From: Chloroflexia bacterium
Lineage (GTDB): Bacteria; Chloroflexota; Chloroflexia; Thermomicrobiales; CFX8
NCBI GenBank assembly: GCA_030431755.1
Contig: JAUIIK010000044.1
Location: forward strand, 1 to 35,568
Direction of reading: 5' to 3'
DNA length: 35,568 nucleotides
Shown: positions 4,727-19,554 of the stretch, piece by piece
Layout: every line of letters begins with the position of its first letter
Position numbering within the stretch: position 1 is the first letter of the stretch
Notes under the pieces: generated by a model
What the model saw: only the letters and a program-made list of their open reading frames with translations
The model's database searches: none
What the model was told of the DNA's origin: nothing
Position numbers and translations under genes: made by a program

Positions 4727-5367
4727 TGCATTGCCTCAACGAGTTCTTGCGCCGCCGCGCGTGGATCGTCCGCGAAGAGGATGGCACTGACGACGGCAAC
4801 GCCGGCAGCTCCGGCCTCTAGCACACCCCGCGCGTTGGCCTGATCTATCCCTCCAATCCCGATACAGGGCAGAGCGACACGATCTAATGTTCGGCGAAAC
4901 GCCGGCAAGCCCAGCGCCGGGCCGGCGTCGGCCTTCGTTTGCGTCCCAAATACAGGACCGATGCCGAGATAGCTGGCACCGGCCGCGATGGCAGCCTGGC
5001 GATCTTCCTCAGCCTCGGGCGAATAGCCGATGACAGCATCAGGGCCGAGCAGCTCGCGCGCCACGGCCACCGGCAGATCATCGACACCCAGATGCACCCC
5101 GTTCGCGCCGCAGGCCAACGCGATGTCAACTCGGTCGTTGATCAGGAACAGGACGTCACGCTCACAGCAGATACGTCGTAAACGCTGCGCGGCGTCCAGC
5201 GCGACCCGGTCCTTCCAGCCCTTGGCGCGTAGCTGCACAGCCGTGACGCCGCCGTCAATCGCCGCTGAGACAATCGACGTCAACCGCTCAAGCGAGTCAA
5301 TCCGCGGATCGGTCACGAGGTAGCAGAAGAGCCGCTGGCGCACCTCGCTCTCGGCGGCGACGCTCAC
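4723..5367 (-). CDS. thiE: Thiamine-phosphate synthase ThiE
   Basis: 214 residues. ThiE joins HMP diphosphate and thiazole phosphate to give thiamine phosphate. The TIM-barrel signatures are present in order: YLVTDPR at the N-terminus, [13 protein letters not shown] (substrate Arg), [29 protein letters not shown] (metal/diphosphate Asp pair), [15 protein letters not shown] (phosphate loop) and CIGIGGID near the end. The start overlaps the thiG stop by 4 bp and the stop overlaps the tenI start by 4 bp. Confidence 0.95.
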
Positions 5368-6167
5368 CGGCTAATGCCGGTCGTCGGGCTGCTGGGGCTG
5401 GCCTGGGCGCGCTTCTCGATACGACCCGCGAGATAAGCGTCACGGCCGGCCTCGATGCCGGCCCGCATCGCCCGCGCCATGCGTGTCGGATCGCCCGCCT
5501 GGGCAATCGCCGTGTTGATCAGACAAGCGTCCGCGCCGAGCTCCATCGCCAGCGCCGCGTCGCTTGGCGCGCCAATCCCGGCGTCGACAACAACCGGCAC
5601 CGACGACTGCTCGACGATCATCTGGATGCGGTCGAAGTGCGTCAGCCCCTGGCCGGATCCAATCGGCGCTGCCAACGGCATCACGGTCGCGCAGCCAGCG
5701 TCCTCCAGCCGTTTGGCCAGCACCGGATCGTCCATGATGTAGGGCAGGACGGTGAACCCTTCGGCAACTAGCGTCTCGGCGGCTGCGAGCGTCCCGACCG
5801 GGTCTGGGAAGAGATACTTCGGGTCCGGTATGACCTCCAGCTTGACCCAGTCCGACAGACCCATCGACCGCGCCAGACGGGCTATGCGCACGGCTTCGTC
5901 AGCCGTGGCGCAACCGGCCGTATTCGGCAGGATCTGATATTTCTCCCAGTCGACGTCTTCAAGCACGCTACGGCTGGCGGGATCGTCGAAATCGATCCGG
6001 CGCAGGGCCACGGTGATCATCTCCGCGCCGCCGGCTTCGAGCGCCCCGTTCATCTCCTCGGACGAACGCCACTTGCCGGTGCCCATGATGAGGCGCGAGG
6101 TGAATTCGCGCCCGGCAATCGTGAGCCGGCTATCGGTCGTCGTCTGCTGTTGTTCAGATACGGTCAC
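5364..6167 (-). CDS. thiG: Thiazole synthase ThiG
   Basis: 267 residues, normal for ThiG. The enzyme condenses deoxyxylulose phosphate, dehydroglycine and ThiS-thiocarboxylate sulfur to form the thiazole phosphate. Visible signatures: [53 protein letters not shown] with the Schiff-base lysine Lys109, [10 protein letters not shown] and [14 protein letters not shown], followed by [20 protein letters not shown]. It is translationally coupled to thiD (overlap 6164-6167) and thiE (5364-5367). Confidence 0.97.
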
Positions 6168-6991
6168 GAGTACATCCTTTCGATCTGCGGTTGGTGTGCG
6201 TGAAAGTGGTTGATCGGCGATCTGCCGCCGCCGACAGCGTAGCCGTGCTTGAGTCCGGCATAGACAAAGGCCTTGCCCTGCGTGATCGCTGCGTCGAGCG
6301 CGAGCCCACGCGCGATTCCGGCGGCTATGGCAGCGCTCAGGCTACAGCCGGTGCCGTGCGTGTGATAGGTGTCGATGTGTTCGGCGCGCAGCCAGCGCTC
6401 GGTCGTGCCGTCAGTGAAGAGATCGTCAGCGCTATCGGTCCGGTGCCCGCCTTTAACGAGGACGGCGCGCGCCCCGCGCTCCAACATGATCTCCGCCGAC
6501 CGGCGCATGTCATCGTCGCCCTCGATCGCGACGCCGGACAGCGCCGCCGCCTCCCGAAGATTCGGCGTAATCAACCGCGCGCGCGGCACAAGCTCGTTTT
6601 GCAGGATGCCCATCGCGTCGGCTTCGAGCAGCGGATAGCCAGTCGAGGTGAACGCGACCGGGTCGACGACGACATGGAGGTCGGGGTAAGCATCGAGCGT
6701 CTCGACGACGGCTGCAATGATCTGGCGGTTGGCCAGCATCCCGGTCTTCGCGGCACGCGGGGCGATGTCGTCCATGACTGCCCGAATCTGCTCCGCAACC
6801 AGCCCGGGCGCCAGGTGAAAGGCGTCGCGCACCTCGCGCGTGTTCTGGGCAGTAACTGCGGTGATCGCGGAGGTTCCGAATGCGCCGAGCGCCGCGAAGG
6901 TCTTGAGATCGGCCTGAATGCCGGCCCCGCCGCCGGAATCGGACCCGGCGATCGTCAGAGCCGCCGGCCAGGCGTCGTTGGACGTAGACAT
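6164..6991 (-). CDS. thiD: Hydroxymethylpyrimidine/phosphomethylpyrimidine kinase ThiD
   Basis: 275 residues, ribokinase fold. It phosphorylates HMP twice to HMP diphosphate. Visible motifs are [20 protein letters not shown] (substrate loop), [40 protein letters not shown] and [18 protein letters not shown] (anion hole and catalytic region). It is the first gene of the thiamine operon, with GAGGAG upstream of ATG 6991. The leader above it carries a terminator (7046-7073) and a TPP aptamer (7097-7189). Confidence 0.96.
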
Positions 6992-7073: not shown

Positions 7074-7096
7074 TGCTCAAAGGGTGTCGCGTGCTT

Positions 7097-7189
7097 GGTG
7101 CCGTCCCTACGCTGGTACAAACCAGATCAGGTTCGGAGGGTTAGCCGACCTCGCGGCAGTCTCAGCGCCTGTGCGCTCCCCTGGCAACC
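7097..7189 (-). promoter_or_regulatory. TPP (THI-box) riboswitch
   Basis: On the minus strand the conserved THI-box order is complete: AGGGGAGC (7182-7175), GCUGAGA with CUGAGA at 7165-7160, then CCCUCCGAACCUGAU and CUGGUUUGUACCAGCGUAGGG ending at 7104. The closing P1 stem is GGUUGCC (7189-7183) with GGCACC (7102-7097). It sits about 105 nt upstream of thiD and precedes an intrinsic terminator, so it controls the six-gene thiamine operon by transcription attenuation. Confidence 0.97.
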
Positions 7190-7258
7190 GTCATTCTCTT
7201 AACTTGCTAGTCTACCAGTGCCGACGGATACACGCGGATACATGAGTGCGAGGCATCG

Positions 7259-14399: not shown

Positions 14400-14819
14400 T
14401 GAATGATCTCCTCAAGCAACGCGGCCCGCGGCTGTGCGGGCGGCGCTGGTGGATGACGGACAAGCGCATGTACTCCGGGCGAGCTGCCCGGCCATTCCTA
14501 TTGCCCGTCTTGTAAGGAGATCTACTGGTCAGCGGCCCGGAAGCCTGGATACCACCTGACTGGCGGACCGGATCTGCCGGTCGCCATGCCCCTTGCTGGC
14601 CTCGCGCTGCCCCCTACGCCTCGGGCGAGGGGGCGCAAAGACTCTCGGTGGTCACCATCAACCCTGTCGCTTGAGGATCTAGCCCGGCGGCACGCGCCGC
14701 CGTTGACCCCAGTCTAGCAGCAGCGGCGAGTGTATCGCAGTTCACAGCCAGCCGGTATCGCGCTTGATTTCCGGACGCTGCGCGCGCCGATATTCTGGAT
14801 ACAGATGAGATCGAGGCGG
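14400..14819. other. Gap upstream of the MFS gene and of RNA element 1; no gene seen
   Basis: There is no coding region with family similarity here. Several GC-rich hairpins can be drawn, for example GACCGG-aucug-CCGGUC at about 14575-14591, and GCCCCCT/AGGGGGC arms around 14609-14635. TTGATT at 14764 with GATATT at 14789 is a poor promoter candidate (19-bp spacer) for the element at 14820. No known riboswitch motif (T-box, SAM, cobalamin, ykkC) could be matched on either strand. Confidence 0.4.
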
Positions 14820-15101
14820 CCGGTTGAAGAAGCCGCGAGACGAGGCGAAAGGAGACAGCGGAGCGAGCCCACATTGTAAAGCGAAGTTTGGCCCCCCGCC
14901 GGACCCGAAGATGAAGAAGAAGCGGTTGGGGGCGGCAAAGAGACAGAAAGACTTCGTTGCAACGTGGGGTGTGAAGAATGCGCGCTCCGCCAAGCTCAGA
15001 AACCCGGGAGCGTAGAGAAGAACAGAAGACGCGGAAAACCCGGGGCGTCAAGACACAAGTGGTCAGGACGAATCGCAACGTCGCGCGGCTCCTTCAGCCG
15101 G
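14820..15101 (+). ncRNA. Candidate structured RNA element, copy 1
   Basis: 282 nt. The 5' end CCGGUUGAAG-A-AGCCGCG-A-GACG pairs with the 3' end CGUC-G-CGCGGCU-C-CUUCAGCCGG: a long helix interrupted by an A.C and an A.G mismatch, then a further GCGA/UCGC stem. Inside, GCGGAGCG (14858-14865) is fully complementary to CGCUCCGC (14983-14990), enclosing CCCAC/GUGGG (14868-14872 with 14964-14968). The 29-nt block 14984-15012 and GCGGAAAACCCGGG (15031-15044) recur in copy 2. It ends 46 nt before the start of the Tat gene at 15148, so it may be its leader. Family unrecognised. A DNA foldback/MITE is the main alternative. Confidence 0.6.
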
Positions 15102-15147
15102 AAGCAGTACAGGCGGCTCGAACGCGAGCCAAGACGAGGAGATCGAC

Positions 15148-15552
15148 ATGGACAAGCGCATCAATCGCCGTAGCTTTCTCAAGCGCGGCGCGGCCCTGGC
15201 CGGTGGCCTGGCGTTGACCTTCAGCACGTCGATCGCCACGCTGGCCGACGAATCCCAGCCGTCGCAGCAACCAGCCGGCGATAGCGTTCGCACCCGGACC
15301 TTCTTCGCCCTGGCGACGACGCGGGATGACCAGGACAAGGCCTGCGCCCGGCACGCGGCGAACAAGCTCTTCGCCAGCCCGGAGGCGGCAGATAGCAACC
15401 GCGCCCACCCAGGCTGCAAGTGCCAGGTCATCAAGGGCGGCGAGCTGCCCGAAGCCACCTGGTCTGCCCTGTTCGGGAACCCGAAGGCCATTCAGCGCGA
15501 CGCGGTCGACCGCCGTTGGGGCTGGGTTGGCCAAACACTGAAGACGAACTAG
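15148..15552 (+). CDS. Small Tat-exported Cys/His protein of unknown function
   Basis: 134 residues from ATG 15148, with GAGGAGAT upstream. The N-terminus is a twin-arginine signal (NRRSFLKRG, then hydrophobic LAGGLALTFSTS and a likely cleavage near ATLADES), so it is exported folded, perhaps with a bound cofactor. The mature part has Cys66-x2-His69 in CARHAANKLF, then NRAHPGCKC (His87, Cys90, Cys92), then GGELPEATWSALFG and VDRRWGWV. This core is shared with residues 84-145 of the larger Tat protein at 16703. A metal site (Zn, Fe or Fe-S) is inferred from the Cys/His spacing. It lies between RNA elements 1 and 2. Confidence 0.8.
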   Translation: MDKRINRRSFLKRGAALAGGLALTFSTSIATLADESQPSQQPAGDSVRTRTFFALATTRDDQDKACARHAANKLFASPEAADSNRAHPGCKCQVIKGGELPEATWSALFGNPKAIQRDAVDRRWGWVGQTLKTN

Positions 15553-15561
15553 ACGACAAGT

Positions 15562-15855
15562 CGGCTGCCGGCTGAAGAAGCCGCAGGATGACGTGAGAGG
15601 AGACAACGGAGCACCCACAGGCACAGAAGAAGCGGGCAACGCTCACCGCCGGGATCGAATCGAAACGGCAGCGGTTGTGGGCAGAAGACAGAGAGAAAGG
15701 CGCGCTTCGCCAGTGGGAGAGAAGCAAGAAAAGCTCCGCCATGCTCAGAGACCCGGGAGCGCACGTAAGAACGAAGGCGCGGTAAACCCGGGCTGCACGG
15801 ACCACAGCGGTCCGCGCGAAGCACGACATCCTACGGCTCCTTCAGCCGGTGGCCG
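15562..15855 (+). ncRNA. Candidate structured RNA element, copy 2
   Basis: The core 15568-15849 is 282 nt, exactly the length of copy 1. The terminal helix is CCGGCUGAAG-A-AGCCG-C-AGGAUG with CAUCCU-A-CGGCU-C-CUUCAGCCGG, then CGUG/CACG inside. Outside, CGGCUG (15562-15567) pairs with UGGCCG (15850-15855). Compared with copies 1 and 3 these helices differ in sequence but remain paired. CGGAGC (15607-15612) pairs with GCUCCG (15733-15738), and the block 15733-15761 matches copy 1 at 27 of 29 positions. It begins 10-16 nt after the Tat gene stop and is followed by a terminator at 15900, so it would be a 3' UTR element or a separate product. Confidence 0.6.
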
Positions 15856-15899
15856 GATGAAACAACTCAGCACACTCCAAACCCTCTCACCCTCCCCGG

Positions 15900-15925
15900 A
15901 AAGGCGCGCCACACGGCGCGTCTTT
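15900..15925 (+). terminator. Intrinsic terminator after RNA element 2
   Basis: AAAGGCGCGCC (15900-15910) pairs over 11 bp (one G.U) with GGCGCGTCTTT (15915-15925) around the loop ACAC, followed by CTGTTT. It closes a transcription unit of element 1, the small Tat gene and element 2. Confidence 0.75.
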
Positions 15926-16093
15926 CTGTTTGCGCGCAACCAGAGGAGAGTTGCTTCTTCGGCCTGCATCAGGGCGCCGGTCAAGCAACGCCAATGCGCA
16001 GTTCTCAGCACATGGTCCATTCACATGAATGCGTAGTCCTCTGGATGGCGGGTGTGTTGCCCGCCTCTATTATCGGAAGTGTTGAAAGCACAC

Positions 16094-16294
16094 GTGGCCG
16101 GTTGAAGAAGCCGGGCGACGTGGCGGTAAGGGGGCCGCAGGGCCGACGCCGGACAACGGCGCTGGCGCGGCGGCGGTCCGGGACTATCCCGGCCGTGTAA
16201 GTCCCACCGGCGACCGCGGCGGAGGTCACTAGGCCTTGCGGCTCTGCGGCATCACCCCGAAACGCCTCGTTGTACGGCTCCTTCAACCGGTCAC
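16094..16294 (+). ncRNA. Candidate structured RNA element, copy 3
   Basis: The core 16098-16290 is 193 nt. The ends are CCGGUUGAAG-A-AGCCG-g-GCGACG-u-GGCG and CGCC-u-CGUUGU-a-CGGCU-C-CUUCAACCGG, continuing outward as GUGG/UCAC. The pairing partition matches copies 1 and 2 (10 bp, A.C mismatch, 5 bp, mismatch, 6 bp, mismatch, 4 bp), while the inner helices are different in sequence. The interior is shorter and more GC-rich than copies 1-2, with clear hairpins CGCCG-gacaa-CGGCG and CCGGGA-cua-UCCCGG. It is not adjacent to a gene: it lies about 410 nt upstream of the large Tat gene, before that gene's promoter. Confidence 0.55.
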
Positions 16295-16401
16295 AGCGAT
16301 CACGACCAATGGAGGTCGCACAGTCCAGACAGCGACGTCTGGAGCATGGAACGCGGCAACATCGCCGCAAGGATGGATTGTTAGTCTATTACGAAGCAGT
16401 G

Positions 16402-16430
16402 TTGACACGTTGCTAACACTCCTCTAACAT
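16402..16430 (+). promoter_or_regulatory. Sigma-70 promoter for RNA element 4 and the large Tat gene
   Basis: TTGACA (16402-16407), a 17-bp spacer and TAACAT (16425-16430). The expected start near 16437 is about 9-14 nt before the first paired base of element 4, so this element would form the very 5' end of the mRNA. Confidence 0.7.
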
Positions 16431-16445
16431 CGCCTTAAGGCTGAC

Positions 16446-16650
16446 GCAGACCGGTTGCAGAAGCCGTATGAGGCGGACAGCGAGTGGATGGCGTGTGGAA
16501 GGTGAGCGGAAGCCGGAGCGCGGAGTCAGAGGCGTCGGATCAGACCGGCGCGGAGGCGATGCAATAAGAGCGAAGGTGGAAGCTCATCGGAAGCAGGTCG
16601 GAAGCTCGCACTAACAAGTCCAAGTCGTGCGGCTCCTCCAGCCGGTCTGT
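16446..16650 (+). ncRNA. Candidate structured RNA element, copy 4
   Basis: The core 16451-16645 is 195 nt. CCGGUUGCAG-A-AGCCGUAUGA pairs with UCGUGCGGCU-C-CUCCAGCCGG. The A.C mismatch is kept, and there is one extra C.C mismatch. The helix extends outward by GCAGA/UCUGU (16446-16450 with 16646-16650), a sequence different from the outer pairs of copies 2 and 3. The interior is purine-rich with repeated GGAAGC/GGAGC motifs and little similarity to the other copies. It ends 53-57 nt before GTG 16703 of the large Tat gene and sits directly after a strong promoter, which suggests a cis-acting leader. Confidence 0.6.
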
Positions 16651-16702
16651 CTATTTCTGAAGCCTGTACAGCTCGGGCGGGAAAGCAACAGGGGAACGCA
16701 CA

Positions 16703-17974
16703 GTGGAACGCAAACTCGATCGTCGGACACTTCTCAAGGGCTCCGCTGCGATTCTCGGTGGCGCAGCTGCGTCACTCTCGACCGGCCTGAGCGCATTCGC
16801 CGAACTCGGCAACTTCCAGTCAACACCGCAGGGCCAGACAACGCTGACCTGGTACGCGCTCGACCCCGAGTGGGGCGTCGGCCTCGATGGCTGCCCGATC
16901 GATCCAGCCGCCGTCCACCAGTCGACTCACGCGTGCCATGCCTGCAACTCCTGCCATCACCACGCCGAGAACAAGCTCTTCCCATCAATGACAGCCGCCG
17001 ATCAGAATCGCGCCCACGTTGGCTGCAAGTGCCTCGTCGTCGAGGGCGGCGAGCTGCCGGTAGAGACATGGGAAGTGCTCTTCGGCGCGCAGGACAACAT
17101 TGAGCGCGAGCAGGTCGACCGCCGCTGGGACTGGGTTGCCGATGCCCTGGCCGGCGAGCCTGAGCCAGCAGAGTACGCCTTCGACAATCCCGCATTCCTG
17201 CGCGTCTGGGAGCGCACCGATCTCCCGGTGCGCGAAGGCGTCGTCTCGCGCTCGTGGCTCTGGACCGACGGCCTGCCATTTACCGGCGGGTTGAGCGAGG
17301 ATTACGAAGAGGGGCCGTTTGGCCAGCGGCTCGTCCAGTACTGCGACAAAGCCCGCATGGAGATCACCGATCCGAACGCCGACGCCAGTTCGATCTGGTA
17401 CGTCACCAACGGACTGCTCGTCGTCGAGCTGATCACCGGCAGGATGCAGGTCGGCCACAACGCCTTCATCGACCGCGAGCCGGCCGTCGTCAACACAGCC
17501 GGAGACCCGGACGACGAGGACGGCCCGACCTACGCAACCTTTGGAGCGGTGCTCGACGCCGCGCCGCTGCCGGTGGGTTCGGTCATATCGCAGGGTATCA
17601 ACCGGGCCGGCAGTGTTGCCACGGATGTGCAAGCGTTCATTGACGAGGGCGTCAGCGTCGGCTACACGGACGAAGTCACGAACCACAGCATCGCCGCGCC
17701 ATTCTGGGATTTCATGAACTCCAGCGGTCCGGTCTATCAGGATGGTGAGTACATCGAGGCGCAGCTCTTCCTTGACCCGTTCTTCGCAACGGGCCGGCCA
17801 ATCGCCGAGCCATACTGGGCGCAGGTCCGGGTTGCCGGTGTACAGCAGTTCGTTCTGATCCAGTGCTTCGAACGCCGGGTGCTGACCTACACGCCGCAGA
17901 ACGACCCCAACTGGCGTGTCGAAGCCGGCAACGTCGGCCGCCATTACTACGCCTGGCGCTACGGCGCGGAATAG
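16703..17974 (+). CDS. Tat-exported Cys/His-rich protein with Chloroflexota secreted C-terminal domain
   Basis: 423 residues from GTG 16703 (AGGGGA upstream). The twin-arginine signal is DRRTLLKGSAAILGG with cleavage expected after about residue 33. Residues 64-110 are Cys/His-rich: Cys64, then HACHACNSCHHHAENKLF (Cys78, Cys81, Cys84, His85) and NRAHVGCKC (His105, Cys108, Cys110). C-N-S-C-H fits the CXXCH haem c motif, but Tat export of a c-type cytochrome would be unusual, so a Zn or Fe site is equally possible. The region 84-145 is homologous to the small Tat protein at 15148. Residues about 160-423 resemble a secreted-protein domain seen in Chloroflexota (LVQYCDKARMEITD, and FERRVLTYTPQNDPNW with VGRHYYAWRYG). 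Function unknown. Confidence 0.8.
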   Translation: MERKLDRRTLLKGSAAILGGAAASLSTGLSAFAELGNFQSTPQGQTTLTWYALDPEWGVGLDGCPIDPAAVHQSTHACHACNSCHHHAENKLFPSMTAADQNRAHVGCKCLVVEGGELPVETWEVLFGAQDNIEREQVDRRWDWVADALAGEPEPAEYAFDNPAFLRVWERTDLPVREGVVSRSWLWTDGLPFTGGLSEDYEEGPFGQRLVQYCDKARMEITDPNADASSIWYVTNGLLVVELITGRMQVGHNAFIDREPAVVNTAGDPDDEDGPTYATFGAVLDAAPLPVGSVISQGINRAGSVATDVQAFIDEGVSVGYTDEVTNHSIAAPFWDFMNSSGPVYQDGEYIEAQLFLDPFFATGRPIAEPYWAQVRVAGVQQFVLIQCFERRVLTYTPQNDPNWRVEAGNVGRHYYAWRYGAE

Positions 17975-18009
17975 CGCCGGTTGAATCTGGCCAAGCAGAC
18001 AACGCATTC

Positions 18010-18081
18010 GTAGGGCCGGGGCTCGTCCCCGGCCGGCGCACGCGAGCCAAAGATGCGGCCGGGGACGAGCCCCGGCCCTAC
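18010..18081. repeat. Perfect 26-bp inverted repeat between convergent genes
   Basis: The left arm 18010-18035 (GTAGGGCCGGGGCTCGTCCC...) and right arm 18056-18081 are perfect reverse complements around a 20-nt loop. It lies between the stops of the large Tat gene and the phosphodiesterase. It could act as a bidirectional terminator, but the exact 26-bp identity suggests a recently acquired dispersed palindromic element. I recall similar GGCCGGGGCTCGTCCCCGGCC repeats in other high-GC genomes. Confidence 0.8.
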
Positions 18082-18111
18082 ACGTCGACCGGTACTCTCA
18101 TCCTAGCCAAA

Positions 18112-19554
18112 TCAACTGAATTGCGGCATGTCCCGTTGGGTCGAGCTATGGATGTAGGTCGTGCTCCCGACGCGGTGTAGCTGCACGCGTGCATCGCCGC
18201 TCGTGTCGCGCAAGATTTCCGCGGCGACGATCGGACCTGACGCATCCGACGCTCGCAGTGCCTCGTGCAGCACCCGGCCATCGAGATCGTTTGGAATCGG
18301 CAAGTCGAGCAGCTGGAGCACGGTTGGCAGGATATCGGTCGCGCCAGCGGGCGTCGTCGGGGTGACTCCGGCGCGGAAGCTCGGACCGTGCGCGATAGCG
18401 AACCCGTGCATGTCCCACGGCGACAGCGTCCCATGCGACGCGACGAGTGCCGAATCCCCCGCCAATGAGACACTGTGTCCGGGCACTCCGAACTGATTCT
18501 CACGCTCCGTCCAACGCGTTGCGACGGCCAGAAGCGGCGCCCGAACGTTCGACCGACCATTCCAGAGATCCCGCAACGGAACGGTTCCAGGTGCGGTCGC
18601 GAGTTCAGGCTGCCCGGTCAGCACGACATCTACCCATGGTTGCGCTACCAGCCAGGCAATCAAGGCTCCGGTTGCGTCCGGTATCGCTGGTGGGCTTGCC
18701 GCGTAGATGAACTCGCCCGTTGCTGAGAACTCCGCCATCGAGACGCCGGTCTCGTCTGCCGCCTGATCGAGATATGCGCCAAGCGTCGCACCGTGCTCCA
18801 GCGTCGTGTGCCCGTGGTCCGACAGCACAAACAGGTCAACGCTCTCCCGCAACCCGCTGCGCTCCAGGGCAGCCAGCACCTGGCCGATGCACTGGTCGAT
18901 CCCGCGCAGCACCGCGATGGACCCCGCCGAACCAACCCCGGTGTAGTGCAGCGCATGGTCCAACTCGTCGATCCAGAGAACGATGACTCGCTTGAGCGGA
19001 TCATCGAGAAAGCACTCGGTCACTGCTCGGGTGACATAGCGGGCGCGCTCGAGCTCGATGAAGTCCCCGAGGCGCGCCGGCACTGGCCCGAGCCGCTCAC
19101 GTAGAGCGCCTGCCGTCGGACTGCCGTAGGTTGTGTTCAGATTCACGCTGTGGTCGCGTTGACGCGGGTTCCAGAGCATGCCGACCCCGCCGCTGCTGCT
19201 CGCGGCCACCGCCAGCCGTTCGCCACGCGCATGTAGCAAGTCGCCCAGCGATGGAACCAACAATGTATCGCCGCTTTCGCCGCCGAGGTCGACGAGCTGC
19301 CGCCAATTCGACGTGTCGACGACCTTGCCGCGATCCTCCATCAAGTTGCCGATGAGGCCATGCCGCCCCGGCGTCGTCCCAGTCGTCATCGTGGCCATCA
19401 CCGCGCGGGTATGCGGCGGGTAGATCGAGTGAAAGTCGGCGAACCGCACACCATCCACGGCTAGTCCGGCAACGACCGGCATGAGATCAGGGTCGAATTG
19501 ATCGGGGCGCAAGCCGTCGATGCCGATGATGAGCACTCGTCGTAGATCCGCCAC
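18112..19554 (-). CDS. Type I phosphodiesterase / nucleotide pyrophosphatase-like (alkaline phosphatase superfamily)
   Basis: 480 residues, no signal peptide. The metal-site signatures are in order: VLIIGIDGLRPDQFD (Asp13), SIYPPHTRAVMATMTTG with the probable nucleophile Thr49, VLWIDELDHALHYTG, LFVLSDHGHTTLEHG and a C-terminal MHGFAIAHGPSF. These define a two-zinc phosphodiesterase/phosphatase. The substrate is unknown; homologues act on nucleotides, phospholipid head groups or phosphonates. It is transcribed divergently from a phosphonatase-like HAD gene, which weakly supports phosphonate or phosphoester chemistry. Confidence 0.88.
   Translation of the reverse strand: MADLRRVLIIGIDGLRPDQFDPDLMPVVAGLAVDGVRFADFHSIYPPHTRAVMATMTTGTTPGRHGLIGNLMEDRGKVVDTSNWRQLVDLGGESGDTLLVPSLGDLLHARGERLAVAASSSGGVGMLWNPRQRDHSVNLNTTYGSPTAGALRERLGPVPARLGDFIELERARYVTRAVTECFLDDPLKRVIVLWIDELDHALHYTGVGSAGSIAVLRGIDQCIGQVLAALERSGLRESVDLFVLSDHGHTTLEHGATLGAYLDQAADETGVSMAEFSATGEFIYAASPPAIPDATGALIAWLVAQPWVDVVLTGQPELATAPGTVPLRDLWNGRSNVRAPLLAVATRWTERENQFGVPGHSVSLAGDSALVASHGTLSPWDMHGFAIAHGPSFRAGVTPTTPAGATDILPTVLQLLDLPIPNDLDGRVLHEALRASDASGPIVAAEILRDTSGDARVQLHRVGSTTYIHSSTQRDMPQFS

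Follow-up and report, generated by a model that had tools for sequence, protein, structure and literature searches.

A stretch of 35,568 nucleotides from a Chloroflexia bacterium, hereafter called the window, contains four copies of a structured RNA that represents a real, new and rare family, strictly tied to one partner gene across three or more deep lineages of bacteria. The partner gene encodes an exported protein with a twin-arginine (Tat) signal and a domain rich in cysteine and histidine. The elements are probably control elements in the messenger RNA of the Tat gene. More specifically, we read them, with a probability of about one half, as structured RNAs in the 5' leader of the mRNAs for these rare Tat-exported Cys/His-rich proteins. 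Homology, structure, strand preference and gene association were observed directly, and from these we infer that the RNA acts in cis on the expression of the Tat protein. Two unnamed families are thereby added, one of RNAs and one of proteins, that are tightly linked across distant bacteria, and this linkage predicts that the stem with the A·C core controls, or partners with, the exported twin-arginine protein.

The RNA elements and Tat genes of the window

The first-pass annotation had proposed four segments on one strand whose ends pair with each other, and all four were confirmed on the forward strand, at precisely the coordinates given. Their 5' ends read CCGGYUGMAG-A-AGCCG and their 3' ends CGGCU-C-CUYCARCCGG. 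The 16 paired positions described for them resolve into 10 base pairs, the A·C mismatch and another 5 base pairs, a count from which element 4 departs by an extra C·C mismatch. Compared with 100 dinucleotide shuffles, the two end motifs match 14 and 12 times against means of 2.7 and 2.1, numbers that none of the shuffles reached.

The locus is arranged in the order element 1, Tat gene 1, element 2, element 3, a promoter-like site, element 4 and Tat gene 2. Element 1 (14820-15101, 282 nt, A·C at 14830/15091) is multibranched and ends 46 nt before the start of Tat gene 1 at 15148; element 4 (16451-16645, 195 nt, A·C at 16461/16635) ends 57 nt before the start of Tat gene 2 at 16703. Both are putative leaders, and their positions agree with the earlier statement that the two gene-proximal copies sit upstream of Tat protein genes. 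Element 2 (15568-15849, 282 nt, A·C at 15578/15839) starts 15 nt past the stop codon of Tat gene 1, and element 3 (16098-16290, 193 nt, A·C at 16108/16280) is not directly followed by a gene. A profile search found no gene remnant behind either of these two copies, which are not leaders and which a pure leader role leaves unexplained. Relative to shuffled sequence, elements 1 to 4 fold with z values of -7.55, -7.18, -7.97 and -5.99, respectively.

Elements 1 and 2 are about 69% identical and have the multibranched interior fold in common, with 10 of 68 consensus pairs changed on both sides; the interiors of elements 3 and 4 differ. Since elements 1 and 2 are separated by indels of 1-2 nt, they are not coding paralogues, and these indels together with an in-frame stop within element 1 ruled out a coding reading of the pair. 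The 16-mer occurs six times in the host genome, namely in the four elements and at two lone sites for which no 3' partner arm was found. The lone sites were therefore rejected as further copies and look like coincidences in coding sequence.

That the forward strand is the RNA strand is supported by the gene direction, by loops that are rich in A and poor in U, and by the promoter-like site before copy 4. In elements 1, 2 and 4, A accounts for 49-58% and U for 3-4% of the unpaired bases on this strand. The promoter-like sequence TTGACA-17-TAACAT (16402-16430, forward strand) ends 20-21 nt before element 4 and is the only strong sigma-70-like site within 14400-18200; a weaker one is present ahead of L032, one of the related loci described below. 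Summed over all 12 copies, four from the window and eight from related loci, the folding energy is -1094 kcal/mol on the plus strand versus -1012 kcal/mol on the minus strand.

Tat gene 1 (15148-15552, forward strand) encodes a 134 amino acid protein that comprises a twin-arginine signal, matched above cut-off by TIGR01409, and a C-x2-HAANKLFAS...RAHPGCKC domain, which AlphaFold models mostly with pLDDT values of 84-97. Tat gene 2 (16703-17974, forward strand) encodes 423 amino acids; its N-terminal part of about 149 residues is homologous to the gene 1 product and carries the motif C-x2-C-x2-C-x2-H...H-x2-C-x-C. The two proteins are 59% identical over residues 64-131, and the domain pattern C-x2-H-A-x-N-K-x-F...R-A-H-x2-C-x-C is common to both. 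Comparison of the domain with Pfam, PHROG, PADLOC and the PDB and a fold search revealed no relative, the only Pfam hit being a weak one to the TAT signal of gene 1, and no family matched the C-terminal extension of gene 2. The Tat partner constitutes a rare new family of small exported Cys/His-rich proteins that are probably metal-binding. Values for the pI of the domain, which span 5.1 to 9.3 across the family, give no clear indication of RNA binding.

Two other features of the window were recorded. An ordinary TPP riboswitch (RF00059, 67 bits) lies at 7086-7192 on the minus strand. At 18010-18081, between the ends of the convergent Tat gene 2 and a phosphodiesterase-like gene, a perfect 26-bp inverted repeat with a 20-nt loop is probably a bidirectional terminator; weak microRNA matches to it were dismissed as chance.

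Related loci and occurrence

A scan of the genome collection with Tat protein 1 yielded loci L032 to L037, and profile searches added L047 and L048 and then L050 to L052. In L036 the match is confined to the signal-peptide end (query residues 1-50). The full Cys/His motif is kept in eight related loci, four from a Thermoleophilia-like actinobacterial class and four from a second class, and in all eight the closing helix is found 5' of the Tat gene. With the window included, a same-strand element is directly 5' of all 10 genes in which the Cys/His core is conserved, that is, at elements 1 and 4 of the window (W1 and W4) and in L032, L034, L035, L037, L047, L048, L050 and L051. The mismatched A and C of the helix are located at 5913/5977 in L032, 5647/5743 in L034, 5648/5743 in L035, 5664/5807 in L037, 1344/1481 in L047, 1332/1481 in L048 and 1421/1464 in L051, and at 1395/1438 on the minus strand of L050. 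For L034 and L035 these positions come from the arm scan; a GNRA hairpin that had been considered as the helix site was rejected. The helix is absent from L033 and L052, whose Tat relatives have lost motif cysteines.

The surroundings of several of these loci offer additional observations. In L048 a TatA/B/E-type translocase gene (PF02416, E 6e-12; 2396-2521) follows directly downstream of the Tat-family gene. Genes for molybdopterin hydroxylase large subunits adjoin the RNA/Tat unit in L034 and L035 from about position 6436 (PF02738 and PF01315 in L034), and a similar-looking molybdopterin hydroxylase gene is located about 5 kb from the unit in L032 (1-1200). The cysteine-less relative in L033 is preceded by a strongly folding noncoding stretch of 740 nt (5250-5985), in which neither an Rfam match nor an A·C-core stem was found. 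In L052 a purine-rich structured leader (1290-1530) precedes a degenerate relative whose homologous region comes immediately behind a stop codon, with no start codon following it; this leader is possibly a decayed or different element.

Within Chloroflexota, the partner gene was found in a single genome out of 400. Carriers amount to 4 of 399 genomes in the actinobacterial class and 4 of 325, one of them weak, in the second class; a further 236 genomes contained no new carrier. The family is thus rare, at about 1% or less of the genomes sampled, and not a general feature of the phylum of the window. Nucleotide similarity searches of 100 related genomes, phages and plasmids returned no homologue, so the family can be reached only via the gene and the structure.

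The conserved closing stem

The arms of the 12 copies were aligned without any gaps. The core reads 5'-G-A-(A/U)-G-C-Y / GGCUCC-3', in which G10, the mismatched A11, G13, C14 and the entire GGCUCC, and hence the A·C mismatch, are invariant in all 12. The A-U pair that follows the mismatch is replaced by U·U in L034, L035 and L051. Outside the core, the helix has been rebuilt by compensatory change, with 12 of the 18 pairs changed on both sides. Covariation scores 0.537 in the family versus 0.209 in shuffles, and 41 cells are changed on both sides versus 14 in shuffles; no shuffle reached either value. Because shuffles do not keep relatedness, more weight is given to the slid controls, in which covariation does not exceed 0.11, and to the held-out homologue L050 discussed below.

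The mismatched A and C are separated by 43 to 261 nt. The smallest members (L050 and L051) consist of one hairpin each, about 73 nt long, and the largest are the 282-nt copies of the window, which indicates that the closing stem and its internal loop form the conserved unit, with an insert that is free to vary. The family illustrates clearly that the conserved functional part can be the closing stem and not the interior. The claim of a new RNA family is therefore supported in a modified form: what defines the family is the closing helix with its A·C core, and the folds of the interior differ from lineage to lineage. Whole elements fold with z values of -8.7 (L047), -7.8 (L051), -7.2 (L037), -6.6 (L048), -5.4 (L035), -3.8 (L034) and -2.6 (L032). 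The arm scores of L032, L034 and L051 alone are not beyond those of shuffled upstream regions; this upstream-only test is too weak for the shorter elements, and structure-level tests were used for them.

Specificity was assessed in several ways. At the gathering threshold, no Rfam 15 family matches the window elements or the related loci, and the E-value mode gave only sub-threshold matches over the window region, none of them on the elements. No description of such an RNA was found in the open-access literature. The check that the first-pass annotation had recommended was carried out, and homologues with significant covariation occur in two further bacterial classes. A model built from eight members, none from the second class, recovered the held-out L050 on the gene strand (36.6 bits, E 3.6e-6; the opposite strand scored 13.0 bits), and only one other match in 114 kb was strong. 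A model of the arms only misses long members, as it cannot bridge their interiors. The core pattern occurs at about 60 places in 299 genomes, and the flanks were checked at 31 loci, including one viral contig; an outer helix with 9-10 of 10 pairs is present only at G465, G575 and G618, each of which is a Tat locus, and the other examined loci do not exceed 7. When the descriptor was run over 366 kb, the 12 copies scored 15-18 of 18 pairs and everything else at most 14.

Possible function and alternative explanations

As a leader, the element would have its functional core in a closing stem or hairpin whose internal loop is fixed and formed by the A·C mismatch followed by A-U or U·U. The outer stem would be maintained by compensatory changes, and the variable insert would be closed by the stem. 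The core is too small to hold a metabolite and the interior lacks conservation. An unchanging small loop within a stem of otherwise exchangeable pairs, at the 5' end of a single gene's message, most likely serves as a protein-recognition site and not as a metabolite pocket. Across the loci, the distance from the end of the helix to the start codon varies between 4 and 57 nt, which argues against masking of the ribosome site as a general mechanism.

Tat substrates fold in the cytoplasm prior to export. On these grounds the folded, metal-loaded Tat precursor may be proposed as the reader of the core, and its binding would provide feedback from export or metal loading to synthesis. That a Tat metalloprotein, loaded with metal in the cytoplasm, binds the A·C-core hairpin of its own mRNA in such a feedback system is a speculative and rather doubtful extension of the leader reading. 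If true, synthesis would be set by the amount of folded precursor awaiting export, and the RNA would be a sensor of Tat export or metal loading. To our knowledge, RNA control tied to Tat substrates has not been described.

A different role, possible but on the unlikely side, is that of a noncoding structured RNA that stands alone, or of a partner RNA for the Tat protein. It would be transcribed from a promoter of its own, be genetically linked to the Tat gene, and act in trans or within a ribonucleoprotein. Such an RNA would account for four copies in one locus, two of them without a gene directly after, for the elaborate interiors of up to 261 nt that are conserved between elements 1 and 2, and for the promoter-like site preceding element 4. 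It fits poorly with the eight related loci, each of which has one same-strand copy immediately 5' of the gene, and with the dispensable interior of the hairpin-only members.

The stems are very stable, vary in interior length and lie near presumed 5' ends, as would be expected if the helix blocked mRNA decay or were cut by a double-strand nuclease and the insert were filler. A generic processing or stability stem, however, needs no invariant GGCUCC and A·C in 12 of 12 copies while its outer pairs exchange freely, and we regard this role as unlikely.

In L037, L047 and L048, the RNA may be inside the coding region. No start codon is found between the RNA and the twin-arginine motif in these three loci, the frame is open through the RNA, the A-to-C distances are all 2 modulo 3 (143, 137 and 149), and an in-frame ATG or GTG lies just 5' of the RNA (regions 5640-5850, 1321-1510 and 1297-1510, respectively). 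The RNA could then encode an N-terminal extension or be removed before translation, with the leader-only cases derived from this state. As an account of the whole family this is improbable: both window genes and L032, L034, L035, L050 and L051 have ordinary start codons after the RNA, the A-to-C distances in loci with such start codons fit no common frame, elements 1 and 2 differ by indels of 1-2 nt, and no conserved catalytic core for splicing is present.

The inverted repeats are long, enclose variable interiors and occur several times at one locus, features that also recall a recombination site or a small transposon (MITE) bounded by terminal inverted repeats. A scatter of such ends without a gene link, named by the first-pass annotation as the finding that would refute an RNA family, is contradicted by copies that keep strictly to homologues of the same Tat gene. 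The copies are restricted to this locus in the host genome and recur in distant lineages 5' of that gene family, their arms differ in sequence between genomes yet stay paired, base composition is strongly strand-asymmetric, and the searched plasmid, phage and viral sets held no similar element. A DNA-level origin is accordingly very improbable. Chance or a base-composition artefact of GC-rich DNA, which the weak arm scores of three loci might suggest, is negligible in view of fold z values down to -8.7, the clean score gap in 366 kb and the recovery of L050 by a model of other members.

Comparison with known systems

Conserved terminal inverted repeats around a variable middle are also seen in integron attC sites, retron ncRNAs and group II introns, but no conserved attC or intron core sequence is present here. 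The neighbouring proteins that were inspected in the window and the related loci included no integrase, reverse transcriptase or maturase, and no intron family of Rfam matched. A ligand-binding aptamer of the riboswitch kind was not recognised in a family whose interior is not conserved across lineages and whose invariant part comprises about 10 nt in a stem. The large ornate RNAs OLE, GOLLD and ROOL resemble elements 1-3 in combining a closing stem with an elaborate interior; in contrast to them, the present RNAs are smaller, their interiors are not conserved across lineages, no Rfam family matches and hairpin-only members exist.

Closer parallels are provided by the orphan cis-regulatory and candidate structured RNA motifs of Weinberg and Breaker (e.g. 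PMC2864571), which likewise emerged from comparative genomics with one gene family downstream and with covariation. The family described here differs from these motifs in having no Rfam 15 match, in the conservation of the closing stem only, in being very rare, and in an interior that ranges from a simple hairpin to a multibranched fold. Protein-binding autoregulatory leaders of the ribosomal-protein type also bear a small conserved internal loop in a 5' leader hairpin whose flanking pairs covary, an arrangement that works like a protein site. The gene product sets the present family apart from them, being an exported Tat protein, which is a candidate reader of the RNA, and not a ribosomal protein.
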